Translations under genes and position numbers: made by a program
Notes under the pieces: model-generated
What the model was told of the DNA's origin: nothing
Databases searched by the model: none
What the model saw: only the letters and a program-made list of their open reading frames with translations
Shown: positions 14,994 to 43,855 of the stretch, piece by piece
Layout: every line of letters begins with the position of its first letter
Numbering within the stretch: the stretch's first letter is position 1
Assembly (NCBI RefSeq): GCF_900089775.1
Contig: NZ_FLOB01000002.1
Location: 248,001 to 312,000 of the forward strand
Direction: 5' to 3'
From: Marinomonas spartinae
GTDB taxonomy: Bacteria > Pseudomonadota > Gammaproteobacteria > Pseudomonadales > Marinomonadaceae
Length of the DNA stretch: 64,000 nt

Positions 14994-15611
14994 ATGAGCT
15001 TTAAGCCAACTTATACTAAAAACGATGTGGAAATTCTAAACGACGAGTGTGTTTACAAAGGTTTTTTTGAGTTTCGTAAATTGACGTTAAAACACAAAAA
15101 GTACAATGGGGAATGGAGCCAACCCATGGTACGAGAAATGATGGTACGCAGTGATGCAGTTTGTGTTTTGTTGTTTGATCCAGTGGCAGATAAGGTGCTA
15201 TTGATCGAACAATTTCGCCCAGCAGTCTATCAAAAGGATTCTCCATGGTTGATTGAGCTTGTGGCGGGTATGGTTGAGAAAGGCGAAAGTGACGAAGACG
15301 TGGCGCGCCGTGAAGCGCTTGAAGAAGCAGGTGTGACCATTAAGCGCCTTGAGTACATGTTTAAATTTGTGCCATCTCCAAGCGGGTTGTTGGAATACAT
15401 TCGTATGTACGCTGGAGAGTTTGATGCGGGTAAGGTCAATCCAGATGAAACCCATGGTTTAGACAGCGAGCATGAAGACATTAAACTGCACTTGATGAGT
15501 GCGGATGAGGCGATTGCTTTATTGGATGATGATATCGAAAATGCCAGTACCATCATGGGATTACAATGGTTTGCACTAAATAAACAGCGCTTGCTTGCTT
15601 GTTGGAAATAA
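14994..15611 (+). CDS. nudF: ADP-ribose pyrophosphatase
   Basis: NudF hydrolyses ADP-ribose to AMP and ribose 5-phosphate. The 205-residue protein has a full Nudix box (GMVEKGESDEDVARREALEE, then AGV) near residues 87-109. It also has the SPSGLLEYIRMYAGEFD stretch typical of ADP-ribose-active members. It begins the conserved nudF-yqiB-yqiA-parE gene order. Confidence 0.93.
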   Translation: MSFKPTYTKNDVEILNDECVYKGFFEFRKLTLKHKKYNGEWSQPMVREMMVRSDAVCVLLFDPVADKVLLIEQFRPAVYQKDSPWLIELVAGMVEKGESDEDVARREALEEAGVTIKRLEYMFKFVPSPSGLLEYIRMYAGEFDAGKVNPDETHGLDSEHEDIKLHLMSADEAIALLDDDIENASTIMGLQWFALNKQRLLACWK

Positions 15612-27223: not shown

Positions 27224-27348
27224 TGAGTCAGTAAATGGGTAAACGAAGCATGGATTGATCTAAATACTAAAGGACGCCAATTGCTATTTGGCTACCGTAG
27301 AAAACTGCGCTACATTGCTAGACCTTCAATGGTAAAGGAATTGTCAGA

Positions 27349-28176
27349 ATGGAAGTGGGGCAGCGCTACTGGATGATAGAGCTATTGGCTTTTTGGGAAG
27401 GGCAGATCAATACCACCCCCTTAATAAAAAGCTTTGGATTAACGCGTCAAAGTGTTAGCCCACTCTTTAAGCAATACCAAGAAGCAACGGGTAATGGTCT
27501 AGTTTACGATACCAAACAAAAAGCCCACATAATCACCGATCACTTTGAGCCCCATTATATTGACCAAAGCGTTGACGAATATTTTGATTGGTTAAACTAC
27601 GGCAAAATCCCCACCTTTTCTAATACCGCCACTGAATCCACCCAACACAGAATAGAAGCCCTAGCACGCTTTGTCTCACCGCAAGTCATGCGCCCCTTAT
27701 TAAAAGCCGTTAAAGATAAAACCGCTGTGGATTGCGAATATCTATCCGTTTCCAGCAGCGACCCGCAAGGTCGTTTGATTTACCCCCATAGTTTTGTGAA
27801 AACCGCCGGACGCTGGCATGTGCGTGCTTACTGCGACATGCGACAGCAATTTCTAGACTTCGTTCTGAGCCGCTTTCAGAGCGTCGACTACGATGGAAAA
27901 ATCGCCGAACAGACCGCACAACAAGACACCCTGTGGAATACTCAAGTCACATTGATTCTTGCCCCTGACTCCCGCCTTACCGACAAACAAAAACGCGTCC
28001 TTGAAAACGACTATGGTATGACAGATAGGCAACTTCACATCACCACCCGTGCTGCCCTTGTCAAATACACCCTAGATGACTTGCAAATAAAAACCAAAAT
28101 GCTCGAAGCCAACCCGCAAGCTCAGCAACTGGTATGTGTTAACTACGCCGACATAAAACACTGGTTATTTGACTGA
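27349..28176 (+). CDS. WYL-domain transcriptional regulator (BrxR/CapW type)
   Basis: A 275-residue protein with an N-terminal winged-helix region (about 1-70, INTTPLIKSFGLTRQSVSPL) and a WYL domain (about 125-195). The WYL domain carries the family pattern YPHSFVKTAGRWHVRAYC with FLDFVLSRF; a C-terminal WCX-like extension follows (about 200-275). This three-part layout is that of BrxR/CapW regulators, which repress defence operons and are thought to sense nucleic acid or nucleotide signals of infection. It lies 136 bases upstream of cas1 on the same strand, so it may control the cas operon (inference). AAAGGA precedes ATG 27349. Confidence 0.8.
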   Translation: MEVGQRYWMIELLAFWEGQINTTPLIKSFGLTRQSVSPLFKQYQEATGNGLVYDTKQKAHIITDHFEPHYIDQSVDEYFDWLNYGKIPTFSNTATESTQHRIEALARFVSPQVMRPLLKAVKDKTAVDCEYLSVSSSDPQGRLIYPHSFVKTAGRWHVRAYCDMRQQFLDFVLSRFQSVDYDGKIAEQTAQQDTLWNTQVTLILAPDSRLTDKQKRVLENDYGMTDRQLHITTRAALVKYTLDDLQIKTKMLEANPQAQQLVCVNYADIKHWLFD

Positions 28177-28312
28177 TTGAATGATGAAAAACAGGATTTC
28201 ACTTAAGACCTGTCAAATTACTTTACCTGTGCAAAACGACAGCATTGTGGGATTGAGAGAAGCAAGGCACAGTGGATACAAGGCAAATAACTAGAGCGAG
28301 AAGGGACAAACA

Positions 28313-29365
28313 ATGGAACAGTTCTCACCATCGGATATGAAAACCATATTGCACTCCAAGCGAGCCAATATGTACTACCTCGAATACTGTCGGGTGATGC
28401 AAAAAGATGGTCGAGTCTTGTATCTCACGGAAGCGCTTTCTAATAAAAAGTCAGGAGAAAACCAATATTTTAATATCCCAATAGCCAACACAACAGTGTT
28501 ACTACTTGGTAATGGTACCTCGATCACCCAAGCCGCCATGCGCATGTTGGCTCAAGCAGGTGTATTAGTTGGCTTTTGTGGTGGCGGTGGAACGCCACTC
28601 TATATGTCGTGTGAAGTAGAATGGTTTACCCCGCAAAGCGAGTATCGCCCCACCGAATACCTTCATGGTTGGTTGCAATTTTGGTTTGATGATGAAAAAC
28701 GTCTGGATGCCGCGAAAACTTTCCAAACAGCGCGCCTCGATTATCTAGAGCGTATTTGGACAAAAGACAAAGACCTAAAAAGTGAAGGCTTTACACTCCA
28801 AGATGCCTCATTGCAAAGCGCTTTTGAAACCTTTCATAACCGAACTGATGCAGCAGCTAAACAGTCCGATTTATTACTAACCGAAGCACAACTGACTAAG
28901 GCTTTGTATAAATACGCCGCGAATGCGGTCAGCATTGATGACTTTACACGTCAACACGACTCAAATGACAAAGCCAACGATTTCCTCAACCACGGCAACT
29001 ATCTTGCCTACGGTTTGGCTGCTTGCTGTTTGTGGGTGCTTGGCATTCCTCATGGTTTTGCTGTTATGCACGGCAAAACTCGACGTGGGGCTTTGGTCTT
29101 TGATGTGGCGGATTTGATAAAAGACGCCATCGTTTTGCCTTGGGCCTTTGTCTGTGCCAAAGAAAACGCCACAGAACAAGAATTTCGTCAGCAAATTCTA
29201 CAAAAATTCACCGACCATAAAGCCTTAGATTTTATGTTTGAGACGGTCAAAAGCATGGCATTACATCTTGGTAGTTCATCAAATAAGCAAAATGACTTCG
29301 AAGAACAAGAGACACTTGTAGGTCGTTCTTTAGAGAGACAAAACGACGAGGATACCGAACGATGA
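28313..29365 (+). CDS. cas1: CRISPR-associated endonuclease Cas1, type I-F
   Basis: Cas1 is the integrase that, with the Cas2 part of Cas2-3, inserts new spacers. The 350-residue protein has the type I-F N-terminus (FSPSDMKTILHSKRANMYYL) and GNGTSITQAAMRMLAQAGV. The catalytic C-terminal region has HGNYLAYGLAACCLWVLGIP, then VMHGKTRRGALVFDVADLIK with its conserved His and Asp. It is the first cas gene, overlapping cas2-3 by ATGA at 29362-29365. Confidence 0.95.
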   Translation: MEQFSPSDMKTILHSKRANMYYLEYCRVMQKDGRVLYLTEALSNKKSGENQYFNIPIANTTVLLLGNGTSITQAAMRMLAQAGVLVGFCGGGGTPLYMSCEVEWFTPQSEYRPTEYLHGWLQFWFDDEKRLDAAKTFQTARLDYLERIWTKDKDLKSEGFTLQDASLQSAFETFHNRTDAAAKQSDLLLTEAQLTKALYKYAANAVSIDDFTRQHDSNDKANDFLNHGNYLAYGLAACCLWVLGIPHGFAVMHGKTRRGALVFDVADLIKDAIVLPWAFVCAKENATEQEFRQQILQKFTDHKALDFMFETVKSMALHLGSSSNKQNDFEEQETLVGRSLERQNDEDTER

Positions 29366-32300
29366 TGGTGACCTTTGTTTCCCAGTGCGAAAAAAACTCA
29401 CTCAAAAAGACCCGACGTGTATTAGATGCCTTTGCCAATCGAATCGGTGACAACACATGGCAAACCCTGATTACCGAAGACGGCTTGCTTACCGTCAAAA
29501 AAATGCTGCGTCAAACCGCCAGTAAAAACACCGCCGTCAGTTGCCACTGGATAAGAACCCGTGCCAGAAGTGAATTACTTTGGGTGGTGGGGAATAAGAA
29601 TAAGTTTAATGAACAAGGTATCGTGCCAGTTAATTATACCGAAGGTGATATTGGGCAGTTTATGGACAAAGAAAAGTGGCAGAGCTTGGCAGTAATGAAA
29701 AATGCGGTTGCTATTGCCGCACTTTTTCACGATTTTGGTAAGGCAAATATTTTATTTCAGCAAAAACTAAAAGGCGAAGGTAAGAATAAATATGAACCTG
29801 TAAGGCATGAATGGGTGTCACTAAGAGTTTTTCAGGCATTTGTTGGGGACAAAACAGATGAGCAGTGGCTAATAGCGTTAACAGAGATAGATAAAAACCA
29901 TAGTGATGATATTTACCAAGACGGTATTAATGATGGAAGAAATAACCCATTAGTTAATTTGCCTCCTTTTGCTCAGTTAGTCGGTTGGTTAATCCTTAGC
30001 CACCATAAATTACCTTTTGTGCCTAGTTGGAAGAAGACGTTAACTCCAGAAACCTCGCCAGCAATTCTGCATAAAAATGGAGTTAGCCCACTAAACAGTT
30101 GGTTTGCTGAAGAGTTACAGGTTTTCTGGAATTCTTATAATTTTAAAAATGAAGATAGCCAAAGCTTTTTACACGATAACTGGACGTTTCATAGCGAAGG
30201 TTTGCCGTATAAAAGCACCAAGTGGCGGCTTAGAGCTATAGAAGCAGCAGATAAAGCTCTGCAAAATGTTAAACAACTCTCCGCTAAAAGCCTTTTACAT
30301 GACGAATTGTTTACCAGTCACCTTGCTCGAATGGCTTTGATGCTTGCCGATCATCATTATTCAGCGCAGAAAGAGACCACGCCAGAGTGGCAAAGCCCTA
30401 ATTATAACGTTTTTGCAAATACTGACAGAGATACAAAAGCACTTAAACAACAGCTTGATGAGCATTTAATTGGTGTGGCTAAACACGCAGTAGATATTGT
30501 AGGTGCTTTGCCACAGCTAAAAGGCAGCTTACAGGCGTTGGAAGATAATGAGTTTTTAAAAAGCACCAAAGCTGATGATAAATACGCTTGGCAGATTGCA
30601 GCACAAAAAGTGGCATTAGATATAAGTGAATCCAGTAAGAAACAAGGCTTCTTTGGTATTAATATGGCTTCGACAGGTAAGGGGAAAACGCTTGCTAATG
30701 CCAAAATTATGTATGCCTTGGCGAGTAAAGAACAAGATTGTCGCTTTACCGTCGCACTGGGTTTAAGAACACTCACCCTACAAACAGGCAGAGAATATCG
30801 TAAGCAGTTAGATTTAACCGCAGAGCAATTAGCGATTGCCGTAGGCGGCTCAGCTTCTAAAGCCTTGTTTGAAAACGAGCAACATAAAAAAGCACCTGAT
30901 GAAAGCTTCGGCACAGGCAGTGAGTCGGTTGAAGACTTTTTAGATCCAGACTTATATGTTGATTATGATTTATCAGGTGTAGAGCACAGTTTACATAGTT
31001 GGACTGGCGCTAACCCACGAATTGAAAAGCTAGTGCAAGCGCCCGCGTTGGTTTGCACGATTGACCATTTAATCCCTTCGACGGATGGCACCAAAGGCGG
31101 TAAGCAAATAGGGCCGATGTTAAGGCTTCTCACTTCAGATTTAGTTATTGATGAGCCCGATGATTTCGGCTTAGAAGACTTACCTGCTTTGTGTCGGCTG
31201 GTTTATTGGGCTGGCATGTTAGGGAGTCGCGTTTTGCTTTCTACCGCCACTATGCCACCAGACTTAGCTTTTGCTGCTTTTCAAGCATATCAAGCTGGTT
31301 GGGCTGAATATGCCAAAGTGAATATTGCTGAATGGAACAAAAGCGTTAACTGTGCTTGGTTTGATGAGCGTCCAAAGGGCGGTGCTCATAAAGCGGAAGT
31401 TCGAGAATTCTCTAGCTTTAAAGAGCAACATGAAAAGTATGTTAAAAAACGAGAGGAATATTTAAGTTATGGCCTAGAAAAACACAAAGCTGAGATTCTT
31501 GATAACCTAACAAGAACTGACAATATCTACGTCAATTTTGCTCAAACCATTATGCAGGGCGCTCTTGCCTTGCATAAAAACAACCATGTAAAGCTGGATG
31601 ATAAACAGGTGTCAATTGGTTTAGTGCGTATGGCTAATATCAACCCAATGGTTGTCGTCACTAAGGCTTTATTAAACTTACCCGCACCTGAAAATACACA
31701 TATACATTTATGCGTATATCACAGTCGTTATCCTTTGGCAGTGCGTTCTTACCTTGAAGGTGAGTTAGACCAAATACTGAATCGCAAGGAAAACTGGCCA
31801 CCTCAAAACCTCCAGAATCTAGTCAACAAAACAGCAGCAAAAAACCAGCTATTTATTGTATTAGCATCACCTGTAGCAGAGGTTGGGCGTGACCACGATT
31901 ATGATTGGGCAATCATTGAGCCAAGCTCCATGCGCTCCATTATTCAGATAGCAGGGCGGGTGCTAAGGCATCGAGATCAAGTTCCAGAGCAAGAAAACAT
32001 TCTATTAATTAACCAAAATATCAAACAGCTTAAAGGCTGTGAACGCTGTTTTAATCAACCGGGTTTTGAAGTAGAAAATTTAAAACTTAAGCTGAATAAA
32101 CATACGTTAAGAGAAGTATTGGATAAATCACAATATCAATCGATCAATGCAGTAGAAAGAGTGATTAAAAGCAAACAACCACCGCTAGAAAACTTGGTGT
32201 CACTAGAGCATGAAGCATTAAGTAGAAAGGTTAATGAAAGAAGTCTTACCGCCTTTTGGTGGAAAGAACAGGCACATTGGTGTGGTGTATTGCAAAACTT

Positions 32301-32652
32301 ACAAGTCTTTAGAAAATCCGCCAAAGATGAAGCTTTGTATTTGCTTTATAAGAATAATGAGTTGATGTGGGAGTGGAAGAATGAGGCGGTTTTTTCTCCT
32401 AAAATGGGGGCGCTCTCAGGGGCTGGTATTTCGATAAAAGAAGAACCTGCCATTATGCCAGCTGAAGGCATCAGCTTTTGGTTTGATTTAAACCCACACC
32501 GTATATACGCAGAATTAGCCAACGATTTTAATACCAGCGAAGAAGAAGCTTCCCAGCTTTTTGGCGAGTTAAGGCTGGTTAGCTACAAAAAAAATGACAT
32601 AAACGAATACAGATATTTTTCTAATTTAGGAATTTACCAAGAGGTGCAGTGA
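29362..32652 (+). CDS. cas3: type I-F Cas2-Cas3 fusion helicase-nuclease
   Basis: Type I-F Cas3 carries Cas2 at its N-terminus and acts in both adaptation and target degradation. In 1096 residues I see a Cas2-like segment (about 1-95) and an HD nuclease (AALFHDFGKAN, His123-Asp124). Helicase motif I is STGKGKT near 437-443, the DExx box is VIDEPDD near 597, then LLSTATM and a motif VI-like IIQIAGRVLRHR. All key residues read are present, so it looks active. It overlaps csy1 at TGATG (32650-32654). Confidence 0.95.
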   Translation: MMVTFVSQCEKNSLKKTRRVLDAFANRIGDNTWQTLITEDGLLTVKKMLRQTASKNTAVSCHWIRTRARSELLWVVGNKNKFNEQGIVPVNYTEGDIGQFMDKEKWQSLAVMKNAVAIAALFHDFGKANILFQQKLKGEGKNKYEPVRHEWVSLRVFQAFVGDKTDEQWLIALTEIDKNHSDDIYQDGINDGRNNPLVNLPPFAQLVGWLILSHHKLPFVPSWKKTLTPETSPAILHKNGVSPLNSWFAEELQVFWNSYNFKNEDSQSFLHDNWTFHSEGLPYKSTKWRLRAIEAADKALQNVKQLSAKSLLHDELFTSHLARMALMLADHHYSAQKETTPEWQSPNYNVFANTDRDTKALKQQLDEHLIGVAKHAVDIVGALPQLKGSLQALEDNEFLKSTKADDKYAWQIAAQKVALDISESSKKQGFFGINMASTGKGKTLANAKIMYALASKEQDCRFTVALGLRTLTLQTGREYRKQLDLTAEQLAIAVGGSASKALFENEQHKKAPDESFGTGSESVEDFLDPDLYVDYDLSGVEHSLHSWTGANPRIEKLVQAPALVCTIDHLIPSTDGTKGGKQIGPMLRLLTSDLVIDEPDDFGLEDLPALCRLVYWAGMLGSRVLLSTATMPPDLAFAAFQAYQAGWAEYAKVNIAEWNKSVNCAWFDERPKGGAHKAEVREFSSFKEQHEKYVKKREEYLSYGLEKHKAEILDNLTRTDNIYVNFAQTIMQGALALHKNNHVKLDDKQVSIGLVRMANINPMVVVTKALLNLPAPENTHIHLCVYHSRYPLAVRSYLEGELDQILNRKENWPPQNLQNLVNKTAAKNQLFIVLASPVAEVGRDHDYDWAIIEPSSMRSIIQIAGRVLRHRDQVPEQENILLINQNIKQLKGCERCFNQPGFEVENLKLKLNKHTLREVLDKSQYQSINAVERVIKSKQPPLENLVSLEHEALSRKVNERSLTAFWWKEQAHWCGVLQNLQVFRKSAKDEALYLLYKNNELMWEWKNEAVFSPKMGALSGAGISIKEEPAIMPAEGISFWFDLNPHRIYAELANDFNTSEEEASQLFGELRLVSYKKNDINEYRYFSNLGIYQEVQ

Positions 32653-34085
32653 TGACTGAAGAAGTTAAGATTAATAGTTGGCGTGATGTAATAATTTTGT
32701 TTTTTCAGACAAAAGTAAACACATCCGCTTTAGCTAAAGCGAGTAAGTATATAGAAGATAATTCTGCAAAGCTTAAAATTGAAAATAATGCAAAAAAGCG
32801 GGAGCGACTTTCAATTTCAATAGAAGAAAAGAAGTTGGATTTTGAAAATCTAAAAGACAACCCGGATGAAATAATAGAGTGGCTAGATGGGAACACAGTA
32901 AAAAAAATATCAACTGGAAATAGAATAATTAAATCTACTCATCCTTTAAAATTCAGTCATAGCTCAGCACCCAATGACGGAGTTTTAGTTGATTATGAAG
33001 ATGAATTACCTTTGTTAAATACTGCTTCTATTTCGAACGATTCGAAAACTTTCGATATGGCGCATAATAATGGTGCATTAATAAGTATCTCTAGATTTTT
33101 AGCATTGACTTATGGTGGAGTTTCTATTTATGACTTGATCTTGGAAAATGACTTTTGTTTTTTAGATGGTTTTTATAAAAATAAAGAACAACTTGAAATA
33201 TGGAAGTTAGGCTTTTCAGAGCTTGTAGAGAAAAGAAGCATAAAATCAGCAAGTTTTACGAAGCAGATATATTTTCCTGTGAATTGTGAAAGCTATCACC
33301 TACTAGCTCCATTGACTTCATCTACACTTGCCGAATCAATTTTTACTAAAATAACAAGTGTTAAATACAAAAAAAAAGCTGATTATTTCTATAGCGACGG
33401 TTCTTTAAGCCCGAGGCTCATAATACCAAAAAATAAAAATGCCGTTATTAGAGTTGGTGGAAACAATCCACAGAATGTATCAATGCTAAATAGAGGTAGA
33501 AACTGGAAGCCCTATAAAGATTCAACGAGTTCTTATGGTGTTGTCTATGTGGTTTCATCTGAGCCTCCAGTATGCTATTCACAACTAAAAGCACCCACCT
33601 ACAAAGAAAACTTTTTTTATGAATTATCAAAAAATTATGAAGTTAAAGAAACTATTCAATATTTGGCTGATTTTCTAATCCGATTTGAAAACTTACAACT
33701 CAGCATTAAAGACCCTAAGCGTATGCGCTGGGTTAATGATTGGATTGAAAACCTAGCTGATGAGGTGCTGGTTTATGTTAAGACTATACAAGACTTGCCA
33801 CCAGGTTGGTCTGCCAAAGAGGGGATTAAATTAAAACCAGAGCACCAAGTTTTATTAGATTGTTATCGCCAAGATGACGATTTTTTAGCGATTAAAAACA
33901 GTAGCGATTGGCAGGCGGTCATCATCCAAGACTTTGCGGCTTGGCTGAATAATCGCCTAACAAGAGCAAATGAAAAATTTACACCACAAGATGCACATAC
34001 CAAGCTGTGGAAGAAAATTTTCAAAGCTAATTTTAGAGAAGAATTTGATACCAAAGGATTAACACCGCAGGAGGAAAAAGCATGA
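32652..34085 (+). CDS. csy1: type I-F Cascade large subunit Cas8f (Csy1)
   Basis: Csy1 recognises the PAM and caps the crRNA 5' end with Csy2. The 477-residue protein matches Csy1 by position and by WYxx-like patterns in the C-terminal half (GGNNPQNVSMLNRGR, PKRMRWVNDWIENLADEVL, PPGWSAKEGIKLKPEHQVLLD). The N-terminal 100 residues are charged and helical. I chose ATG 32652 over GTG 32649. The gene is AT-rich compared with the surrounding housekeeping genes. Confidence 0.92.
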   Translation: MTEEVKINSWRDVIILFFQTKVNTSALAKASKYIEDNSAKLKIENNAKKRERLSISIEEKKLDFENLKDNPDEIIEWLDGNTVKKISTGNRIIKSTHPLKFSHSSAPNDGVLVDYEDELPLLNTASISNDSKTFDMAHNNGALISISRFLALTYGGVSIYDLILENDFCFLDGFYKNKEQLEIWKLGFSELVEKRSIKSASFTKQIYFPVNCESYHLLAPLTSSTLAESIFTKITSVKYKKKADYFYSDGSLSPRLIIPKNKNAVIRVGGNNPQNVSMLNRGRNWKPYKDSTSSYGVVYVVSSEPPVCYSQLKAPTYKENFFYELSKNYEVKETIQYLADFLIRFENLQLSIKDPKRMRWVNDWIENLADEVLVYVKTIQDLPPGWSAKEGIKLKPEHQVLLDCYRQDDDFLAIKNSSDWQAVIIQDFAAWLNNRLTRANEKFTPQDAHTKLWKKIFKANFREEFDTKGLTPQEEKA

Positions 34086-35260
34086 GCCAGTACTTATTAA
34101 TTGAAAGAATTAAGGTGCAAAACGCTAATGCAGCCTCTGGTTTTACTTGGGGCTTTCCAGCCATAACCAATTTTTTAGGTTTTAGCCATAATTTATGTAG
34201 AAAATTAACAGAAGATTCTAGTCTGAACAGTTTATCTCTGGGTGGATGTGCAGTTATTGCACACAGTAGTCATTCAAATACGTTCGAAGTAGAAAATGGA
34301 CTGTTATTTTCTCAACATAGGGGAACTAGTTATTTAGATACAACAAATCCAGCAGATACATACAAATCACCATCTATTATTGAAGAAGCCAAAATGAATA
34401 TGACAGTTTCTTTATTAATCCCTGTAGAGGGTTACTTAGGTGGTTTACAGGAATTATTGAAGGAATTTATTAAAAACGCGTGCCAAATACAGCGTTTAGC
34501 CGGTGGAACTGTGTTGTCAGTAGCGAATGTAGATATTATTGATTTGGCTAAGGACGAACAGCTTAAAAGTATTAGAAGAAAACTATTACCGGGCTTTATT
34601 TTGCAAAATAGATCCAGTTATTTAGCAGAGCATTTTTCAATGCTTAAAGAGAGTAACCCCAAAGCAGAGTTACTTGATGCGTGGTTTGATTTTATTGCCT
34701 TGAAGCAAGTAGCTAGGCCAGCCTGTGAGTTGTTAGATAGACACTTGGCTGACCAGGCTGAAAAATCAGAACCTCTTTCGTTGTTAAATGATATCTGGCT
34801 TGAACATAAAAGCCAGCCGTACCAACAAGAAAACCTACCTAATGAGCTAATTACTTACTTTGCAGAACAGCAAGAATGCATTGATCCTAAAATTTTAATG
34901 CAATGGCAAAACTACTTAGAGCCAAATGAAAAAACATCGGCTAATTGGGAATACGCCAAAAAACCACAATCGGGTTATTTAGTCCCAATAATGACGGGTT
35001 ACAAAGCCATTACTGACGTTTACCCAGCAGGTGAAATTGATGGTGCTAGAGATTCTGAAACAGATCTATGTTTTGTAGAAGCTGTACATTCTATTGGTGA
35101 ATGGCAAAGCGTACATCGTTTAAAAAAACTAGAGCAATGGCAAACCAGTGTGTGGCGCTATGCGCCTTATGAAAAAGATTGGTACATGTGCCAGCAAGGC
35201 GTAGTAACTGAAAACCAAGCATTACCCACCGAATCATCAAGCGATGAAGTTTATTACTAA
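34082..35260 (+). CDS. csy2: type I-F Cascade subunit Cas5f (Csy2)
   Basis: Csy2 binds the 5' handle of the crRNA together with Csy1. The 392 residues begin YLLIERIKVQNANAASGFTWGFPAITNFLGF, a Csy2 hallmark. FILQNRSSYLAEHF lies in the middle and SGYLVPIMTGYKAIT near residue 300. It is somewhat longer than the about 330-residue P. aeruginosa protein. It overlaps csy1 by ATGA at 34082. Confidence 0.93.
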   Translation: MSQYLLIERIKVQNANAASGFTWGFPAITNFLGFSHNLCRKLTEDSSLNSLSLGGCAVIAHSSHSNTFEVENGLLFSQHRGTSYLDTTNPADTYKSPSIIEEAKMNMTVSLLIPVEGYLGGLQELLKEFIKNACQIQRLAGGTVLSVANVDIIDLAKDEQLKSIRRKLLPGFILQNRSSYLAEHFSMLKESNPKAELLDAWFDFIALKQVARPACELLDRHLADQAEKSEPLSLLNDIWLEHKSQPYQQENLPNELITYFAEQQECIDPKILMQWQNYLEPNEKTSANWEYAKKPQSGYLVPIMTGYKAITDVYPAGEIDGARDSETDLCFVEAVHSIGEWQSVHRLKKLEQWQTSVWRYAPYEKDWYMCQQGVVTENQALPTESSSDEVYY

Positions 35261-35278
35261 TTTAAAAAGGAAATACCT

Positions 35279-36259
35279 ATGACTATACAACTACCAAGTA
35301 TGCTAGCTTTTGAACGAAAACTAGAAACATCTGACGCTTTGATGTTTTCAGGTGAGTGGGAAAGTATTACATCTGATGAAAAATGGCAGGATATTAAAAT
35401 CAGTAAGCGTTGGAATAGATCTACAAAAAGTGCTGAAGGAACAAAAGAAGGAGAGATGAGTGAAGCTAACCCTGTTTCTCAAGGAGCCGAGGATGCCAAT
35501 CTACCTCAGAAACATGACACTCTAAAAGTAAGCTTTAGTTTGCGTGTAGTGGGCAACCTTGGTGTCCCTTTTGGTTGTAACTCGCCAGCTTTTAGTAATG
35601 CAATTAAGGCTAAAACAGCTGCTTTTAAAGAACGTGAAGGTATTAATACGTTGGCTTATCGTTATGCTTACAACTTGGCCAATGGCCGTTTTTTATGGCG
35701 TAATCGTGTTGGAGCAGAAGAAATAACGATTTTAGTTAAAGCAGGTGATAACTCCTTCACATTTAATGCGTATGACTTTTCTTTAAATGAGTTTGAAAAA
35801 TCTAGCGAAAATGCAGATCTGCAAAAGCTAGCAGCAATCATTGCTGAGGGTTTACAAGGTGACCAACAAAGCTTTGTTCTCGTTGAAGTGGATGCTTTTG
35901 TAAAACTAGGTCATCAGCAACATGTGTTCCCCTCTCAAGAAATGAACATGGGTGAAAAGGGCAAGGTCTTATTTAAACTTGGAGGCTGTGCTGCTATTCA
36001 TAACGTAAAAATAGGCAATGCTGTTCGTACTATTGATACTTGGTATAACCGTTATGAAGAATACGGGCAGCCTATTGCTATTGAACCCTTCGGTGCTGTT
36101 ACCCAAATTGGTGACGCTTTCCGTAAAAACAAAAAAGAAGGTGACTTATATTCATTAATGATTGATTGGGTAAACGGCAGTGAATTAGTACCAGAACAAC
36201 AAGCGTATGTTATGGCTAATTTAATTCGCGGTGGTGTGTTCAGTAAGTCATCTAAATAA
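35279..36259 (+). CDS. csy3: type I-F Cascade backbone Cas7f (Csy3)
   Basis: Csy3 is the repeated backbone subunit that coats the crRNA spacer. The 326-residue protein has the family start MLAFERKLETSDALMFSGEW. RYAYNLANGRFLWRNRVGAE lies in the core, and EPFGAVTQIGDAFR and the terminal LIRGGVFSKSSK region follow. An 18-base gap with AAAAAGGAA separates it from csy2, consistent with separate strong initiation for a high-copy subunit. Confidence 0.95.
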   Translation: MTIQLPSMLAFERKLETSDALMFSGEWESITSDEKWQDIKISKRWNRSTKSAEGTKEGEMSEANPVSQGAEDANLPQKHDTLKVSFSLRVVGNLGVPFGCNSPAFSNAIKAKTAAFKEREGINTLAYRYAYNLANGRFLWRNRVGAEEITILVKAGDNSFTFNAYDFSLNEFEKSSENADLQKLAAIIAEGLQGDQQSFVLVEVDAFVKLGHQQHVFPSQEMNMGEKGKVLFKLGGCAAIHNVKIGNAVRTIDTWYNRYEEYGQPIAIEPFGAVTQIGDAFRKNKKEGDLYSLMIDWVNGSELVPEQQAYVMANLIRGGVFSKSSK

Positions 36260-36271
36260 AGGAAGTCAACT

Positions 36272-36877
36272 ATGCGTTTTTATCAAGAAATAACCCTTAT
36301 AAAAACGCCTGAGATTTCACCCTATTTTATCTGGGGAAAGCTCTACATGCAGTTGCATTTGGCATTAGTAGAACAACAAAACCCAGATAAAACAGTGAAT
36401 ACTGGCGTTAGTTTTCCTGAGTATAAATATATCCAAAAAGAAGATGGAGTGTTTGCCAGCTTAGGCTCAAAGTTAAGAGTGTTTGCGAATACCGAAATTG
36501 AGTTACAGCAACTTAACCTAGTCAAATGGTTAGATCGTCTAACTGACTATGTACATATAAAAAGCGTTGCAGAGGTGCCAGATAATGTGCAGGGTTATGA
36601 AACCTTTAATCGTCGTTGTAAATCTGGCTCACCAGACAAGCATATTAGAAGGCGAATGAAACGTCATAATGAAACATGGGAACAAGCGGCAGAATTTTTT
36701 AAAGGCTACAACATGGAAAAAGCCGATAAAGATCTGCCTTTTATTCGAATGAAAAGCCTACATAGTGATAACGAGTTTTGTATGAGCATCACTAGAAAAG
36801 AAGCTGAGTTGTCCAATAAACACGTTATGTTTAACACCTACGGACTGAGTGCAGAAGGTGTTTTACCCAAGTTTTAA
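36272..36877 (+). CDS. csy4: type I-F crRNA endonuclease Cas6f (Csy4)
   Basis: Csy4 cuts the CRISPR transcript at the 3' base of each repeat hairpin and stays bound. The 201-residue protein has the catalytic-type His at residue 29 (YMQLHLALV), the Arg-rich helix RRRMKRH that grips the RNA stem, and RMKSLHSDNEFCMSI with the conserved Ser region. It ends with YGLSAEGVLPKF. It is the last cas gene, 130 bases before the array. Its recognition surface should be read together with the unusual repeat hairpins downstream. Confidence 0.95.
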   Translation: MRFYQEITLIKTPEISPYFIWGKLYMQLHLALVEQQNPDKTVNTGVSFPEYKYIQKEDGVFASLGSKLRVFANTEIELQQLNLVKWLDRLTDYVHIKSVAEVPDNVQGYETFNRRCKSGSPDKHIRRRMKRHNETWEQAAEFFKGYNMEKADKDLPFIRMKSLHSDNEFCMSITRKEAELSNKHVMFNTYGLSAEGVLPKF

Positions 36878-36918
36878 CCAATAAAATTTGCTCTTTAAAA
36901 AAATACTTTAAAAACAGA

Positions 36919-36990
36919 AAGTTACAACATGCAGAAAAAACATTGGTAAAAACGTCTATTTTTACCTAACGGCATGTTGTAACTTGTTTT
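36919..36990 (+). promoter_or_regulatory. nested inverted repeat in the CRISPR leader
   Basis: Between csy4 and the first repeat there is a perfect 14-bp outer dyad (AAGTTACAACATGC at 36919-36932 with its complement at 36972-36985). An inner perfect 8-bp hairpin lies within it (GGTAAAAA / TTTTTACC, 36945-36966). The outer stem is followed by TGTTTTTTTG. It could be the terminator of the cas operon, a leader recognition structure for integration, or both. Confidence 0.75.
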
Positions 36991-37007
36991 TTTGCAACTA
37001 GACTATT

Positions 37008-39978
37008 GTTTGCCGCCGAGCACGCGGCTTAGAAATGTTTGCTTCCTCAATGTTGCAATAAGTTCTTGTTTGCCGCCGAGCACGCGGCTTAGAAATGTAA
37101 CGCCTTGGCAGATGTACAAGGCTCAGCGTTTGCCGCCGAGCACGCGGCTTAGAAAACAAAAGCATTATCAAATCGTGATACACCAAGGTTTGCCGCCGAG
37201 CACGCGGCTTAGAAAAAAAACGATGTCACGAATTACAGTCTTCAGGGGTTTGCCGCCGAGCACGCGGCTTAGAAAAAAAACGGCTTGATGGGGTGTCATA
37301 TCAATCAGTTTGCCGCCGAGCACGCGGCTTAGAAATGAAAGTCTTTCTGAAAACCACTGAGTGTCTTGTTTGCCGCCGAGCACGCGGCTTAGAAAACCAA
37401 GAAAGACCAGGCGAAAGAGGTGTGGAAGTTTGCCGCCGAGCACGCGGCTTAGAAACAGATAAAGTAAAGGATGTGTTTGATGAGTAAGTTTGCCGCCGAG
37501 CACGCGGCTTAGAAAAGAGCCAGAGGAACCAACAAAGAGCGCATGTTGTTTGCCGCCGAGCACGCGGCTTAGAAAAAATACACCGCGTCTTTTTTGCGCT
37601 CTTGGCGGTTTGCCGCCGAGCACGCGGCTTAGAAAATACGACGAAACCTTCTATTTATCGCATGTACGTTTGCCGCCGAGCACGCGGCTTAGAAAGGATA
37701 TAACTTCATTCTCGTTTAGCAAATAAAGTTTGCCGCCGAGCACGCGGCTTAGAAAATTTTGGTAAATTCGTCTTCGATGAGTATGTTGTTTGCCGCCGAG
37801 CACGCGGCTTAGAAATCATCAATGACAGTAAGCCCCAGCCCACTAACGTTTGCCGCCGAGCACGCGGCTTAGAAAATCTCCTGAACCATTACCGATGAGA
37901 TCTGATAGTTTGCCGCCGAGCACGCGGCTTAGAAAAGTTAAAAAAAGACCTGCAAAATCTAAAAAATGTTTGCCGCCGAGCACGCGGCTTAGAAAGCCAA
38001 GCACTGAGCGTTCAGCCGAGATTGAATGTTTGCCGCCGAGCACGCGGCTTAGAAATAATACCGCAAGCCATGAAAGGCAAGCCAGCTGTTTGCCGCCGAG
38101 CACGCGGCTTAGAAAGATTGATTCTAAATTTCCATCTCGCGACAGCCGTTTGCCGCCGAGCACGCGGCTTAGAAATATCTCGAAAGTATGGTAGCGGTGA
38201 ACCAGTAGTTTGCCGCCGAGCACGCGGCTTAGAAATTTAGGGGAAAACTTATGGCGCGCTATTTGTCGTTTGCCGCCGAGCACGCGGCTTAGAAAAAGAG
38301 ATTGAAAAGCTCAACTTCTGGCTCAAAGTTTGCCGCCGAGCACGCGGCTTAGAAAAGTTTGCGGATGATGGCGTATTCCAAACCCACTGTTTGCCGCCGA
38401 GCACGCGGCTTAGAAATAATAACCCCAAAAATGGTAGAGACCGTATTTGTTTGCCGCCGAGCACGCGACTTAGAAACAACGCTCAACAACGTCGAAAACT
38501 ACACCAACGTTTGCCGCCGAGCACGCGGCTTAGAAACGTTGGACTTTGCAACAGCAGAGGGCCAGCCTGTTTGCCGCCGAGCACGCGGCTTAGAAAAGTA
38601 GCGGGGCTCACAGAAAGCGTTAATCTTCGTTTGCCGCCGAGCACGCGGCTTAGAAACTGTGGCGTTTTGACTGTCACGTAAGCTCCGAGTTTGCCGCCGA
38701 GCACGCGGCTTAGAAAAATAAGCGCAAATGTTACGCTTATTGGTAATTGTTTGCCGCCGAGCACGCGGCTTAGGAATGGCGCAGTAATTGACCGTCTTTT
38801 TATCGAATGTTTGCCGCCGAGCACGCGGCTTAGAAAACATCCCGATATTCGTCATCACGATAAGCACGGTTTGCCGCCGAGCACGCGGCTTAGAAACTTA
38901 CGCGGTTGTAGAAATGAAAAGTTTAGACGTTTGCCGCCGAGCACGCGGCTTAGAAAAATAAAATCCAGCGCCTCAGCCATGCCCAACTGTTTGCCGCCGA
39001 GCACGCGGCTTAGAAAGACCACGCGAACCAGCGAGAGTTTGATGTGTTGTTTGCCGCCGAACAGGCGGCTTAGAAAAAGAAGCTCATTACTTCTTCAGGT
39101 TTACTCATTCTTCACCGCCGAACAGGCGGCTTAGAAATTGCTCCGCTCCCCAGCAAATACAGACAAAAGCTTCACCGCCGAACAGGCGGCTTAGAAATAG
39201 GCTATTAGGATTAATCACCCCTTGCATCTCTTCACCGCCGAACAGGCGGCTTAGAAAAGCATTCAAAACCATGTGTTAGAACTGATGAACTTCACTGCCG
39301 AACAGGCGGCTTAGAAATTTGTTGATGGACTCAAGATAATCACCTTCTTCTTCACCGCCGAACAGGCGGCTTAGAAAAGCAGTGTTCCACCTTGCCCCAT
39401 CTTCAAAGCCTTCACCGCCGAACAGGCGGCTTAGAAAGAGGAGGATGTTAGGCGTAATCGTGAAATGATCTTCACCGCCGAACAGGCGGCTTAGAAAGCG
39501 AGCGGGTATGGTCGTTTCTTGCAATGGTTCTTCACCGCCGAACAGGCGGCTTAGAAATTGTGGCTGATTGAATCCACCTTGCTGTTGCCCTTCACCGCCG
39601 AACAGGCGGCTTAGAAAATGCGTTTGTGCGCAAGTTTAGATCTGGCGCAACTTCACCGCCGAACAGGCGGCTTAGAAAATAGTCGGTCGCCAACAGCGCC
39701 AAAGCCTTGGCTTCACCGCCGAACAGGCGGCTTAGAAAGAGACAGCGCGCCATTTTTTAGATTAGGTCAACTTCACCGCCGAACAGGCGGCTTAGAAATA
39801 ATGGTGACACGGTGGGGGATTTCATGTTGCCTTCACCGCCGAACAGGCGGCTTAGAAATGAAATTTCACTTGCGGCATATGCAAGGCTTCCTTCACCGCC
39901 GAACAGGCGGCTTAGAAAGAATACCACCGCACCGATGCGGCGGCTCATTTCTTCACCGCCGAGCACGCGGCTTAGAAA
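37008..39978 (+). CRISPR. type I-F CRISPR array, 50 repeats, 49 spacers, two repeat types
   Basis: Repeats are 28 bases and spacers 32, except three of 33 (38356-38388, 39077-39109, 39618-39650). Leader-side repeats 1-34 (from 37008) begin GTTTGCC and contain GAGCACGCGG. Repeat 35 (39049-39076) has the left half of that type and the right half of the next. Repeats 36-49 (39110-39918) begin CTTCACC and contain GAACAGGCGG. Repeat 50 (39951-39978) combines the CTTCACC start with GAGCACGCGG. All end in TTAGAAA except one with TTAGGAA (38749). Other single variants are G20A at 38449 and C7T at 39290. The cas operon lies immediately upstream, so the leader is on the left. No duplicate spacers were noticed by eye. 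Confidence 0.97.
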
Positions 39979-40046
39979 AACGGGTCTAGATTAACGTTGC
40001 GAAGTTCCGTATGATTTTGGCCTGCCTATGGAAGAGGGATCATATT

Positions 40047-41219
40047 ATGACTTGGAAACACTCAGGGAAAGTTGAGGCATTTGACGAGATTGGCTTAGAT
40101 CAGCAGATGGCACAGCAGTATGGTTTGGCATATAACCCTGCAGATCTGATGAGTGCGCGTATTTTTATTTCTCGTCAAGCGCTTGCTATGCTAGCAAGCC
40201 TTAACCATTTCGATCAGCAAAAAGTGATCAAAGAAATCGCTTTTGTCTGTAATAACCCCAATAGTTGCAGCTCCACTAAGCACAGCTTAATGCCATTTAA
40301 GCGCTTCTATCGTACAAAAGATCAGTTTCGTTCTTATCATTACCTAATTGACTTTAAAATCACGAAAAATGATCAAGTAGTTATTCATGATATCTATCTT
40401 GATCAAACGCTTGTTGGTCCAAAGTCGAGACACCGTTTAGAACGTAATATGCTTTACAATGTTAAACGAATAGGTGGCCGTTTTAATGGTGCTCTGGATG
40501 ACGATGATCTTAAGCGGTCAATAGGGGCGTGGAGTCAAGATTTAGAAGCAGAGAGTCAAATATCTAATCAACATGCTGCTGTTAATGGTATGCAAAATGA
40601 TTTGAATAAAGCAACATGGTTAATGGGGGCACATTTGGATGCAGCCTATCCGAATGATGACTTTGATACTTATACATTATTTCATAATCCGACTGATCGC
40701 ATGTTTTATGATGTGGTCGAATGCGTTTTCGATAAGCGCCAAGGCACGAAATCACAGAATGCGCAACATCTAGCCGCCATATTTTATCAAAATCAGTAAC
40801 AGGGCAAAAAAGTTAAATGGGTTGTTCATAGTCAAGGGGCAATCATCTTTACGGCAGCCTTAGAAGAGTATCGAAAGTGCTATAGTGTCTTATTAACATC
40901 TCAACAAGTGGCTATACATGCTCCTGGTGCCTATGTACCTCGTTTAAAGTTAGCCGCTAACCAACTAGGAATGAAGGTTAATCAACCAAAAAGTAACCCT
41001 TTTGACCTTGTGCCAAATATCGCTGGAGCAAATAACCTATCACCAAGTAGTTTAGTCCGCAGTTTAAAGTTTTTTGGTTTAACCTTTTTTGGAACTGAAC
41101 TGACTAGCCCCCATACCTTACCCTATTTAGGTCTTGAGTCTTATCATGCTCAGTTAAGAATGGCGGGCAATCATCGTAGAGCACAAGATATATTAAATTA
41201 TATAGAAAAGAACACTTAA
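40047..41219 (+). pseudogene. alpha/beta hydrolase-like effector, interrupted by an in-frame stop
   Basis: One reading frame of 391 codons is broken only by TAA at 40797-40799 (codon 251); it resumes in the same frame and ends at 41219. The second half begins QGKKVKWVVHSQGAIIF, a hydrolase nucleophile elbow (Ser262). A candidate catalytic His is in SPHTLPYLG (His356). The first half includes a FHNPTDRMFYDVVE strand region and an N-terminal part I do not recognise. Start ATG 40047 has AGAGGG nearby; there is no good start for the second half. Followed by three immunity-like paralogues, it resembles a lipase-type toxin whose active site is cut off by the stop. Family naming is inference. Confidence 0.65.
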
Positions 41220-41255
41220 TGTGCTCTTTTCTAATCTTATAAAAAGGCCTTTTAT

Positions 41256-42047
41256 ATGATTTTCAAGAAAATATTGCATGGATATCGTGGAGGTATTAAA
41301 CGAAAACGTTCCTCTCATACCTCTTTTCATTTGGACGGTGGTTTTAACTTAATTTTAGATTTGCCTATATGTAATCCACCAAAAACATTTAGTTCAAAAT
41401 GGATGGATTACCCTTTCACAGAGCCAGGTTGGTTTGAAAGTAATTATAGCCAAATAGGTCATGCTAGGTATATACCAGTGTGTGAATATTATTGGTTTTA
41501 CTATCCTATCGTTCCTACTCCATTTCGAGGGGAGCTAGGTCATTTACGTCTTAATTTCATGGTTGAAAAAATAACTGAAGATGTTAGTAATGTAGATGAA
41601 CTAGGTGACGCAATATTGTCTAAGTACAATGAATATTATAATTCATCCATTATTGGGAAGTATTTATTAGGATATAACACTGAAATAATTGAATCTGTGG
41701 AAGAATTCTCGGCTTGTCGAACAACACCACTTAATGAAGAAGAAAAAAAAGAGTTAGTGCAATTTCGTATTAACAAGGGTGGCTTTCCTATAATTAATGA
41801 GTTTGAAAAGAAAACATACAACAATGTAGATTGGGTTAAAATCAAGGAAATACGTTCAGAAGGTATGAAGAAGAAATATTTTTATGCCACCTTGCTAAAT
41901 AAAGGATTCTACTTGTTGGCTAATTTTACATTAGATACGAATATGTCCCACAGTGGTAAAAAGTGGTACAAAGATGCTGAGGCTTCTATTCCCCGCTTAA
42001 TGGAAGGGATTAAACTAGAGTTTTTAGATGATACGGAAAAAACATAA
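41256..42047 (+). CDS. tandem paralogue 1, immunity-like protein
   Basis: A 263-residue protein with no signal peptide or membrane segment, of a family I cannot name. It is the first of three similar tandem genes. Shared marks are a start with GYRGG, the WFESNYSQIGHARYIPV block, GELGHLRLNF, and the C-terminal NMSHSGKKWYKDAE followed by SIPRLMEGI. AT-rich composition and the position after a broken hydrolase toxin gene suggest a cytoplasmic immunity protein (inference). It overlaps the next gene by 20 bases. Confidence 0.7.
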   Translation: MIFKKILHGYRGGIKRKRSSHTSFHLDGGFNLILDLPICNPPKTFSSKWMDYPFTEPGWFESNYSQIGHARYIPVCEYYWFYYPIVPTPFRGELGHLRLNFMVEKITEDVSNVDELGDAILSKYNEYYNSSIIGKYLLGYNTEIIESVEEFSACRTTPLNEEEKKELVQFRINKGGFPIINEFEKKTYNNVDWVKIKEIRSEGMKKKYFYATLLNKGFYLLANFTLDTNMSHSGKKWYKDAEASIPRLMEGIKLEFLDDTEKT

Positions 42048-42849
42048 GACTTTAATTAGGTCTATAAGACAGCTGTTTTTTGGCTATCGAGGCGGTCCAG
42101 ATTTCAACTGCTTAGAACAGAAAAGCTTCTATTTGGACAGTGGATTTAATCTTATTTTAGAACTGCCTAGAAATAACCCTAAAAAGTTAGCTTCGTCTAA
42201 ATGGAAAGACTATCCCTTTACTGAGTCAGGATGGTTTGAGAGTAATTATAGTCAAATAGGTCACTCTAAATACATACCTGTATACGAAGCTTACTGGTTT
42301 TTTTGGCCGCTTATTCCAACTCCTTTGAGAGGCGAACTCGGTCATCTACGTATTAATTTTAGTGTATCTAAACTTTCTAAATCGGTAAATAACTGTCTTG
42401 AACTAGGTGAAGAGGTATTAAAAGAATATAATGATTACTATAACTCACCAATTATTGGGAAATACGGCTTAGGTCATAATGCAGAAATTATAAATAAGGT
42501 AGATGCTCACTCTGAACGTAGGGCTATACCATTTAGCGAAGAGGAAAGAAAAGAGCAAATTGAAATTAATATGAAAAATAGAGGGTATCCTTATCTCAAA
42601 GAATTTGACTGCTTAGAGATTAACGGGGTTGATTGGATTAGATATGTTGAAATAAAATCGAGCGATTTTAAGAAAAAAAATGTATATGCTAGTCTATTAG
42701 GTGATGAATATTATTTGTCTGTTGAGTTTTATTTATCAACTAATATGTCGCATAGTGGTAAAAATTGGTACAAAGATGCGGAGGATTCCATTCCTAGGTT
42801 AATGCAGGGAGTTAGTTTACAGCCTTTAAATGCAAATACCAATAAGTAA
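42028..42849 (+). CDS. tandem paralogue 2, immunity-like protein
   Basis: A 273-residue second copy, with an N-terminus ten residues longer before GYRGG. It is the most diverged of the three at the C-terminus (SVEFYLSTNMSHSGKNWYKD). It keeps the ESNYSQIGHSKYIPVYEAYW block and GELGHLRINF. The only ATG with enough upstream sequence is 42028, inside the end of paralogue 1, so translation is probably coupled. Confidence 0.7.
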   Translation: MIRKKHKTLIRSIRQLFFGYRGGPDFNCLEQKSFYLDSGFNLILELPRNNPKKLASSKWKDYPFTESGWFESNYSQIGHSKYIPVYEAYWFFWPLIPTPLRGELGHLRINFSVSKLSKSVNNCLELGEEVLKEYNDYYNSPIIGKYGLGHNAEIINKVDAHSERRAIPFSEEERKEQIEINMKNRGYPYLKEFDCLEINGVDWIRYVEIKSSDFKKKNVYASLLGDEYYLSVEFYLSTNMSHSGKNWYKDAEDSIPRLMQGVSLQPLNANTNK

Positions 42850-42856
42850 AAGGACT

Positions 42857-43648
42857 ATGCTTATTAAGAAGCTACTATATGGCTATCGTGGTGGGGTAAA
42901 TTTCAAATATTTTTCTCAGGAGTTTTATACTTTAGATGAAAAGATTAAAGTTGATTTGAACTTGCCGATATGTAACCCAATAAAGCCAAAAAAAGCCAAA
43001 CTTGTAAACTATCCACTTTCTAGTTCTGACTGGTTTGAAAATAATTATAATCAAATATTGCATTCCAAATATATTCCAATACATGAAGCCTACTGGTTTT
43101 ATTGGCCTGTTATACCAGTTCCTTTTCAAGGCGAATTAGGTAATTTGCGTCTCAATATTACTGCTTCTAAGGCTATGTCTCCAGTATCTAATATTGATGA
43201 GTTGGGACTAATCATATTAAAAGAATATAATGAGTATTATAATTCCCCTGTGATAGGTAAGTACTTTAAGGGGCATAATGTGAAGTTGGCTAATAATATG
43301 AATCAGGAGCTGGATAGGCGAGCAACAAAATACTCTAGGGAAGAGAGAGAAGATCTTATAGCATCTTGTATCTTTGAATCTGGTTTTCCTGAAATTAACC
43401 ATTTCGAAAAAAATAATGTTAATGGTATAAAATGGGTTAGATACATTGAAGGAGGATCAGACGTTATGCAAAAAAAGTATGTGTATGCCACACTATTAAA
43501 TGAAGAGTTTTATCTTCTGGCTAATTTTACATTAGATACGAATATGTCTCACAGTGGTAAAAAGTGGTACAAAGATGCTGAAGCTTCTATTCCCCGATTA
43601 ATGGAAGGAATTAATTTAGAATTTTTAGATGTGATTGAGAAAAATTAA
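42857..43648 (+). CDS. tandem paralogue 3, immunity-like protein
   Basis: A 263-residue third copy. I chose ATG 42857, with AAAAGGA just upstream, because MLIKKLLYGYRGG aligns with paralogue 1; ATG 42830 is possible. The middle differs from the other two, yet its last about 110 bases of homology match paralogue 1 almost base for base (around 43527-43640 against 41927-42040). That pattern fits recent gene conversion or unequal duplication. Confidence 0.7.
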   Translation: MLIKKLLYGYRGGVNFKYFSQEFYTLDEKIKVDLNLPICNPIKPKKAKLVNYPLSSSDWFENNYNQILHSKYIPIHEAYWFYWPVIPVPFQGELGNLRLNITASKAMSPVSNIDELGLIILKEYNEYYNSPVIGKYFKGHNVKLANNMNQELDRRATKYSREEREDLIASCIFESGFPEINHFEKNNVNGIKWVRYIEGGSDVMQKKYVYATLLNEEFYLLANFTLDTNMSHSGKKWYKDAEASIPRLMEGINLEFLDVIEKN

Positions 43649-43717
43649 AACCGATTATATCTATTAAAAAGCTATTTATTCCATGGATATGATGATAAAT
43701 CAGATTTTAAACGGTCA

Positions 43718-43855
43718 TAACAGGAGGCTTAGAAAGTACCCTCCCCAAATTTATGACAAACAATTGCCTTCACCGCCGAACAGGCGGATTAAAAATTACT
43801 CCATTCCGAAGGAGATTAGCGTCAACACTTTACTGTCGCAGATGCGGCTTAGGTC
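43718..43855 (+). CRISPR. relic of a CRISPR array end: three degenerate repeats, two spacers
   Basis: A right-hand repeat half (AACAGGAGGCTTAGAAA, ending 43735) is followed by exactly 32 bases. A repeat at 43768-43795 then differs from the array's distal type at two positions (CGGATTAAAAA). Another 32 bases follow, and a third repeat at 43828-43855 keeps 20 of 28 positions. The orientation and phase match the main array 3.7 kb upstream. The first unit lacks its left half, so the cassette boundary probably lies near 43718. Confidence 0.85.

Follow-up and report, generated by a model that had tools for sequence, protein, structure and literature searches.

A switch of repeat type inside a type I-F CRISPR array of Marinomonas spartinae, a probable recombination seam

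A type I-F1 operon and its array of two repeat types

The window, that is the whole stretch of 64,000 nucleotides of the Marinomonas spartinae genome analysed here, carries a complete type I-F1 operon (cas1, cas2-3, and csy1–4), which a 130-nt leader joins to an array of 50 repeats of 28 nt with spacers of 32–33 nt (repeat listing of 37008–39978). Six NCBIfam models scored above their cut-offs in this one operon, those of cas1, of the cas2-3 fusion, and of csy1 to csy4, which identifies it as I-F1. The features are listed below; A and B denote the two I-F lineages of the genus and X and Y the two repeat types, all described further on, and repeats are numbered from the leader.

28313–29365, forward strand: cas1 (I-F, A lineage; TIGR03637), 84–95% identical in 10 other A genomes and 56–59% in 7 B genomes
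29362–29634, forward strand: Cas2 domain of cas2-3, end of the conserved adaptation block (nucleotide identity ends at 29634)
29635–32652, forward strand: Cas3 part of cas2-3, effector side (TIGR02562)
32649–34085, forward strand: csy1 (cas8f; TIGR02564)
34082–35260, forward strand: csy2 (cas5f; TIGR02565)
35279–36259, forward strand: csy3 (cas7f; TIGR02566)
36272–36877, forward strand: csy4 (cas6f), 201 amino acids (TIGR02563; model pLDDT 87), with split identity
36878–37007, forward strand: A-type leader, from its identity to A-lineage leaders, unlike the leaders of the orphan Y arrays
37008–39016, forward strand: R1–R34, X-type, with a G5-C21 pair and a C10·C16 mismatch (repeat listing, folding)
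39049–39076, forward strand: R35, hybrid X5′/Y3′, a putative crossover scar (repeat typing, hybrid pattern search)
39110–39918, forward strand: R36–R49, Y-type, with the canonical I-F hairpin (folding, Rfam RF01317)
39951–39978, forward strand: R50, terminal hybrid Y5′/X3′ (repeat typing), suggesting an earlier exchange
43708–43795, forward strand: two decayed repeats, the second Y-like, with a 32-nt spacer between them, past the gene cassette 40011–43648

Repeats R1–R34 are of type X (GTTTGCCGCCGAGCACGCGGCTTAGAAA), with two variants (G20A in R25 and A26G in R30), and R36–R49 are of type Y (CTTCACCGCCGAACAGGCGGCTTAGAAA), with one variant (C7T in R39). Between the two blocks, R35 (GTTTGCCGCCGAACAGGCGGCTTAGAAA), present as a single copy in the array, joins an X 5′ half to a Y 3′ half. 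A reading of the window from its letters alone (hereafter the sequence-only reading) had reported such a switch within one array, and the repeat listing bears it out. The differences that it gave, at positions 5 and 16, are both real, but X and Y also differ at positions 1, 4, and 13. It overlooked the terminal repeat, R50 (CTTCACCGCCGAGCACGCGGCTTAGAAA), which is the reverse hybrid, Y5′/X3′. R35 differs from its two neighbors by 2 and 3 substitutions and is the exact half-and-half of two repeat types known from other species, and the sequence of R50 also terminates the C17 orphan array and occupies the Y/X border of another genome of the genus, G030.

The end of the array is followed by a cassette (40011–43648) with genes for proteins of 262 and 103 amino acids and for three tandem paralogs of about 270 amino acids, for which we found no Pfam or PADLOC match. 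A related cassette, inverted relative to that of the window, lies behind the C17 orphan array (L009, 8736–10768); the two arrays both end in the same Y5′/X3′ hybrid, and in both the cassette comes next. Past the window cassette, further decayed I-F repeat remains lie at about 43828–43855, and the decayed I-F repeats on this side are the remnant of a once longer array at the site. The comparison of window spacers with phages returned one weak match, to Vibrio phage D478 (33 nt, 90.9% identity, E = 0.07).

Predicted hairpins and the Csy4 protein

X repeats are predicted to form pairs 5-21 to 9-17 around a 7-nt loop (−8.8 kcal/mol), with probabilities of 0.98 for pair 5-21 and 0 for pair 10-16, and Y repeats to form pairs 6-20 to 10-16 (−10.1 kcal/mol). 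Folding thus agrees with the sequence-only reading, which had given the distal repeats the canonical 5-bp stem (positions 6–10 with 16–20) and 5-base loop, and the leader-side repeats a 5-bp stem moved outward by the loss of 10-16 and the gain of 5-21, with a 7-base loop. A bulged 11-16 pair is a minor alternative in X repeats (P = 0.27); as main X structure it is 1.0 kcal/mol worse than the 7-nt loop, and we consider it less preferred. In R35, pairs 5-21 to 10-16 make up a stem of 6 bp (−13.6 kcal/mol). In R50 neither 5-21 nor 10-16 is possible, of these pairs only 6-20 to 9-17 are left, and the predicted minimum is a different, weak fold (−6.8 kcal/mol). The canonical I-F hairpin (5 bp from 6-20 to 10-16, 5-nt loop) is therefore absent from the 34 X repeats and from R50 and present in the Y repeats, and R35 has its pairs plus 5-21. 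The gathering cut-off of the Rfam family CRISPR-DR4 (RF01317) is reached by 15 of the 50 repeats, namely R35–R49, and by none of R1–R34, nor by R50.

For other genera, we considered the 27 csy4 loci that were the best matches of 58 matching genomes among 390 searched. The full repeat was resolved at 16 of them, several of which are close relatives, and the 11 with partial or no repeats were left out. All 16 keep the five canonical pairs, 10-16 included, and 9 of the 16 have G5-C21; the absence of the 10-16 pair was seen, in this analysis, in Marinomonas only. The loss of this pair is thus the true peculiarity of the X lineage, while a paired C21 is common. Another form within the genus occurs in a further array of G006, where the part covered (L050, 16920–19888) has 50 identical repeats (GTTCACCGCCGAATACGCGGCTTAGAAA) in which neither 5-21 nor 10-16 can pair.

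The model of the window Csy4 superposes on the Pseudomonas aeruginosa Csy4–crRNA complex (2xlk) with a Z-score of 22.2 and an rmsd of 4.1 over 187 aligned residues (VIA-align), and the protein is thus predicted to have the standard Csy4 fold. In the alignment it keeps the residues corresponding to P. aeruginosa H29, R102, S148, F155, and Y176, among which H29, S148, and Y176 are catalytic. Its identity to the Csy4 proteins of G039, G015, and G038 is 73–77% over residues 66–201 and 43–46% over residues 1–65, whereas these three proteins show an even identity among themselves, with no such split. The portion with the arginine-rich helix is thus the one linked to the leader, and a partial coupling of Csy4 to the repeat, through residues 66–201, which are encoded next to the leader, is possible from this comparison of sequences.

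The sequence-only reading had gone further and proposed that Csy4 may have changed its recognition together with the switch, the paired C21 placing the usual cut inside a helix. Several observations argue against this. In clade 1 of Csy4, the run of three basic residues in the arginine-rich helix lies one place later than in P. aeruginosa and in the B lineage, and G038, with a Csy4 of the same clade and the same helix pattern as the window, carries Y repeats only, 53 in number. Within clade 1, none of the arginine-rich-helix residues tracks the repeat type, and X repeats are also found with Csy4 proteins of another family, described below. Nor would a cut at a paired C21 be special, given how common this pair is in other genera and given that arrays of X architecture are reportedly processed in Marinomonas mediterranea MMB-1. 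In this strain, processing of the I-F pre-crRNA is reported to be efficient in vivo and to depend on Cas6f, with an expected cut site 8 nt from the repeat 3′ end (PMC5576922). We took G020 to be MMB-1 from its arrays of 52 and 37 spacers, about 250 kb apart, in which G5 and C16, that is, the X architecture, are present in 53/53 and 38/38 repeats. MMB-1 resembles the window in its genus, its clade-1 Csy4 (46% identical), its A-type Cas1 and leader, and its repeat architecture, but its two I-F arrays lack Y repeats and have U7-A19 where the window has C7-G19. A link between the position of P. aeruginosa Q104 and the 7-19 pair was also considered and rejected, as the clade-1 residues at this position (C, R, S, and H) do not track C7-G19 versus U7-A19.

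Taken together, the repeats of G038, MMB-1, and G006 would favor a Csy4 that needs pairs 6-20 to 9-17 and is tolerant on either side, and from G038 and MMB-1 we infer that the window Csy4 would process both forms. The P. aeruginosa Csy4 has a strict requirement for stem length, an argument against such tolerance in that protein. For the A lineage, a repeat without 10-16 may go along with a real difference in Csy4 recognition.

Two I-F lineages in the genus and their module borders

We surveyed 48 genomes of the genus, chosen after the pattern had been seen, and found Csy4 in 19 of them and a Cas1 match in 24. These matches were near-complete in 18 genomes, a fragment in one (G043), and only weak or short in 5. 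The near-complete Cas1 proteins fall into two groups, 11 with 84–100% identity to that of the window (lineage A) and 7 with 56–59% (lineage B). The leader follows the same division: the segment 36871–37007 is 74–92% identical to the leaders of 10 other A-lineage genomes and has no match at the 7 B-lineage loci. So does the first repeat, which is X-like in 10 of the 11 A genomes and Y-like in all 7 B genomes (Fisher p = 0.00025, for species that are not independent and data seen beforehand). The exception is G038, with an A Cas1 and an A-type leader, yet with Y repeats. In 14 of the 18 genomes (9/11 A and 5/7 B), a gyrB paralogue, presumably parE, precedes cas1 by less than 12 kb, genes of both the upstream and the downstream flank are common to A and B loci, and the five cas1-bearing genomes nearest by GyrB (95%) comprise three B and two A. 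X and Y are thus established repeats of two I-F lineages, which mostly occupy one chromosomal site.

The M. spartinae genome itself, assembled in 40 contigs, has only one cas1 but three I-F arrays. One of the two orphan arrays has 17 Y repeats followed by a Y5′/X3′ hybrid as its 18th and last, the other has 21 Y repeats, and the leaders of both are of the B type, unlike that of the window. At the same place, the sister genome G044 (GyrB 99%) lacks the whole 27292–43832 stretch and has instead three decayed I-E-like repeats and one decayed I-F-like repeat.

Near the same site, two other genomes have repeats of mixed I-E and I-F appearance, in which the I-E parts are presumed from the I-E repeat consensus. 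In G033 (L048, reverse strand, 15065–15212) an I-E-like repeat precedes a fused repeat with an I-E 5′ part and an I-F 3′ part, a form found by pattern search in 1 of the 48 genomes, and in G019 (L060, reverse strand, 1290–1338) an I-E-like repeat is fused to a Y-type I-F end. The G033 repeat gave rise to the idea that the X loop derives from an I-E repeat, which we dropped because X-type repeats with U7-A19 keep matching 6–9/17–20 arms.

Along the operon, DNA identity to A relatives covers cas1 and the Cas2 domain and stops at 29634 in five relatives; short patches aside, it resumes at the leader or, for G015, G039, and G038, at about 36470 within csy4. At the protein level, the Cas2 domain (first 91 amino acids) is 88–100% identical in 10 other A genomes and 54–60% in 7 B genomes, and the Cas3 part is 34–43% identical to those of the 13 other I-F1 genomes compared and has no match in G040, G033, G006, and G041. 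Between G040 and the window, identity reaches 94% for Cas1, 100% for the Cas2 domain, and 92% for the leader but 25% for Csy4, with no match of Cas3, Csy1, Csy2, or Csy3. The G040 effector (Cas7fv and Cas5fv) is that of type I-F2, or I-Fv, as described for Shewanella putrefaciens CN-32 (PMC4605320). This locus has the Cas1, Cas2 domain, leader, and X repeats in common with the window and differs from it in effector and Csy4. By identity comparison with the window, the loci of G033, G006, and G041 appear I-F2-like. X repeats thus coexist with two very different Csy4 families, the second of which, in G040 and the three I-F2-like loci, is only 25–26% identical to the window protein. It follows from these loci that Cas1, Cas2, the leader, and the X repeat move together. 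With the sharp Cas2/Cas3 border, the linkage of repeat type to Cas1, Cas2, and leader, and not to any single Csy4 family, suggests that the repeat is fixed by the adaptation machinery and not by the processing enzyme. The A-lineage cas1 of the G040 I-F2 locus (L046) has an internal stop at codon 187, and adaptation there may therefore be dead.

Mosaic arrays and the origin of the switch

Typing by the 5′ half (positions 1 and 5) and the 3′ half (position 16) covered 1,720 repeats in 23 arrays. One half could not be typed in 122 of them, and orphan arrays of other genomes were covered only at hybrid-pattern matches and in G020. Hybrids are rare (15 of the 1,720 repeats), and two hybrid pattern searches of the 48 genomes gave 5 and 8 places. 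Three hybrids (two in G019 and one in G003) have a leader-side neighbor that is not fully typed. In the other 12, five of which sit at array ends, the 5′ half agrees with that neighbor in 11 cases, the exception being R21 of G003, where a Y5′ hybrid follows an X repeat, and the hybrids with both neighbors fully typed agree on both sides in all cases (6/6). The 11 fully typed internal X/Y borders include 6 with a hybrid and 5 with none, and at the latter the crossover would have to lie in a spacer or in the 3′ part where the two repeat types are identical. Y blocks within X arrays occur in G039 and G015, with short isolated ones also in G040, and the type switches without hybrids at internal borders in G040 and G033. 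The B genome G030 displays the reverse mosaic, with 200 Y repeats, a Y5′/X3′ hybrid, and then five X repeats at the old end. G030, G033, and G040 are all given as one contig.

We also compared 1,630 spacers on both strands, from arrays clipped at stretch ends and with a few spacers N-masked. No spacer of the window array appears among the best 60 pairs listed, in which all 32-nt matches lie within one array and one long match consists of N letters only. Among the best pairs listed for these 1,630 spacers, none of the Y block was shared with a pure array of donor or ancestor type, and shared spacers were dropped as proof of a donor. No whole spacer in the pairs listed is common to different species, which suggests that the mosaics arose in separate events, and duplicated spacers or spacer blocks are frequent within arrays, consistent with recombination between repeats.

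We consider, with a probability of roughly 80%, that the repeat switch is a recombination seam, at which the cas genes, the leader, and the leader-side part of the array were replaced through a crossover inside a repeat. R35 is best read as the product of this crossover because mosaics recur and because hybrids so consistently take their 5′ half from their leader-side neighbor. The sequences show directly the blocks, the hybrids, the association of leader with Cas1, the synteny, the recurrence, and the module borders, to which the predicted Csy4 fold is added; we infer how the events followed one another, how the DNA entered, and that the window strain processes both forms. The ancestor would have had a B system, whose Y repeats would survive as R36–R49 and in the two orphan arrays, both of which have leaders of the B type. 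Incoming DNA with an A cassette, leader, and X repeats would have replaced the cas genes and the leader-side array, its right-hand crossover lying between positions 5 and 13 of a single repeat, the later R35. As new spacers would copy the leader-side repeat only, the upstream block would have stayed X. R50 suggests an exchange in the other direction, from A to B, which was probably earlier. The resident Csy4 would cut both forms after position 20, recognizing their common core (6-20 to 9-17), and the G5-C21 and C10-G16 pairs would be dispensable for it. The sequence-only reading was thus true and sharp as an observation, but the cause of the switch is likely a different one. The presence of hybrids of both polarities, their rarity, and the persistence of orphan Y arrays despite a single cas1 count in favor of the seam. 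Against it count G003 R21, the five borders without hybrid, the A Cas1 and leader of G038 beside its Y repeats, and the fact that, among the best spacer pairs listed, none points to a donor or recipient array. Moreover, X and Y are identical without interruption only at positions 6–12 and 17–28, which makes ordinary homologous recombination there inefficient.

Exchange or conversion confined to the genome's own arrays, with Y repeats entering an X array or the reverse and the cas genes left unexchanged, appears improbable. It could draw on the other Y-type arrays of the genome, and it would fit the short isolated Y blocks inside the X arrays of G040, G015, and G039, as well as the common block duplications within arrays. 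However, one-by-one conversion could not make 14 consecutive Y repeats with distinct spacers, and no spacers are common to the three arrays in the best pairs listed; an exchange of blocks between arrays is possible and comes close to the seam itself. Slightly less probable still is the origin favored by the sequence-only reading, in which three 5′ changes in a Y repeat gave R35 and two loop and stem changes then gave R34, copied forward while Csy4 co-adapted. Such a course would fit the order in which the repeats lie, with R35 as its single-copy intermediate, but three and then two substitutions leave no step between them, and they would have recreated exactly the repeat that the other lineage already has, in other species and next to a leader of its own. 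R50, at the oldest end, already has the X loop, the window leader is not of the type found at the genome's Y arrays, and the arginine-rich helix of clade-1 Csy4 does not follow the repeat type. R35 is thus a 6-bp mix, as claimed, but hardly a mutational intermediate, since it is an exact half-and-half of X and Y and since, in other species, block borders carry hybrids of either polarity. An assembly chimera joining two arrays through their repeats, conceivable in a 40-contig genome with several arrays of similar repeats, is very unlikely, as both chromosomal flanks match a single contig of G044, the sister genome (92–96% identity), none of the best spacer pairs listed links the window array to either orphan array, and mosaics are present in single-contig genomes.

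Compared with known systems, the locus is type I-F1 (csy) in its cas1, cas2-3, and csy1–4 genes, 28-nt repeats, 32-nt spacers, and predicted Csy4 fold, but its X repeats, without 10-16 and able to pair 5-21, fall below the CRISPR-DR4 cut-off, and its array is a mosaic of two lineages. In Escherichia coli, Almendros and colleagues reportedly described in 2014 an exchange of CRISPR-Cas functional modules, with cas cassettes replaced relative to arrays. The window differs from that case in its apparent crossovers inside repeats, which leave hybrid repeats behind, and in that one effector border is the boundary of the Cas2 and Cas3 domains. In literature searches of open-access papers, preprints excluded, none of the results listed dealt with hybrid I-F repeats of Marinomonas.

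Changes of repeat type within arrays could serve as a record of successive cas gene replacements. Tentatively, and at somewhat less than even odds, the array may serve as a seam for swaps of whole immune modules: Cas1, the Cas2 domain, the leader, and the repeat type would stay together as an adaptation module while effector genes, be it the Cas3 part, csy1–3, part of csy4, or an entire I-F2 set, are exchanged around it, crossovers in repeats, even between I-E and I-F, would join the new module to the old memory, and a Csy4 that reads a 4-bp core would keep both usable. The genus offers natural pairs, with Csy4 of the same clade next to X repeats, next to Y repeats, or next to both in one array, which would allow a direct test of the dependence of Csy4 on the repeat hairpin. 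A further peculiarity was seen in a reverse-strand array of G036 (L038), three of whose "spacers" are 108 nt long and nearly identical, and are perhaps a small mobile element inserted beside repeats.
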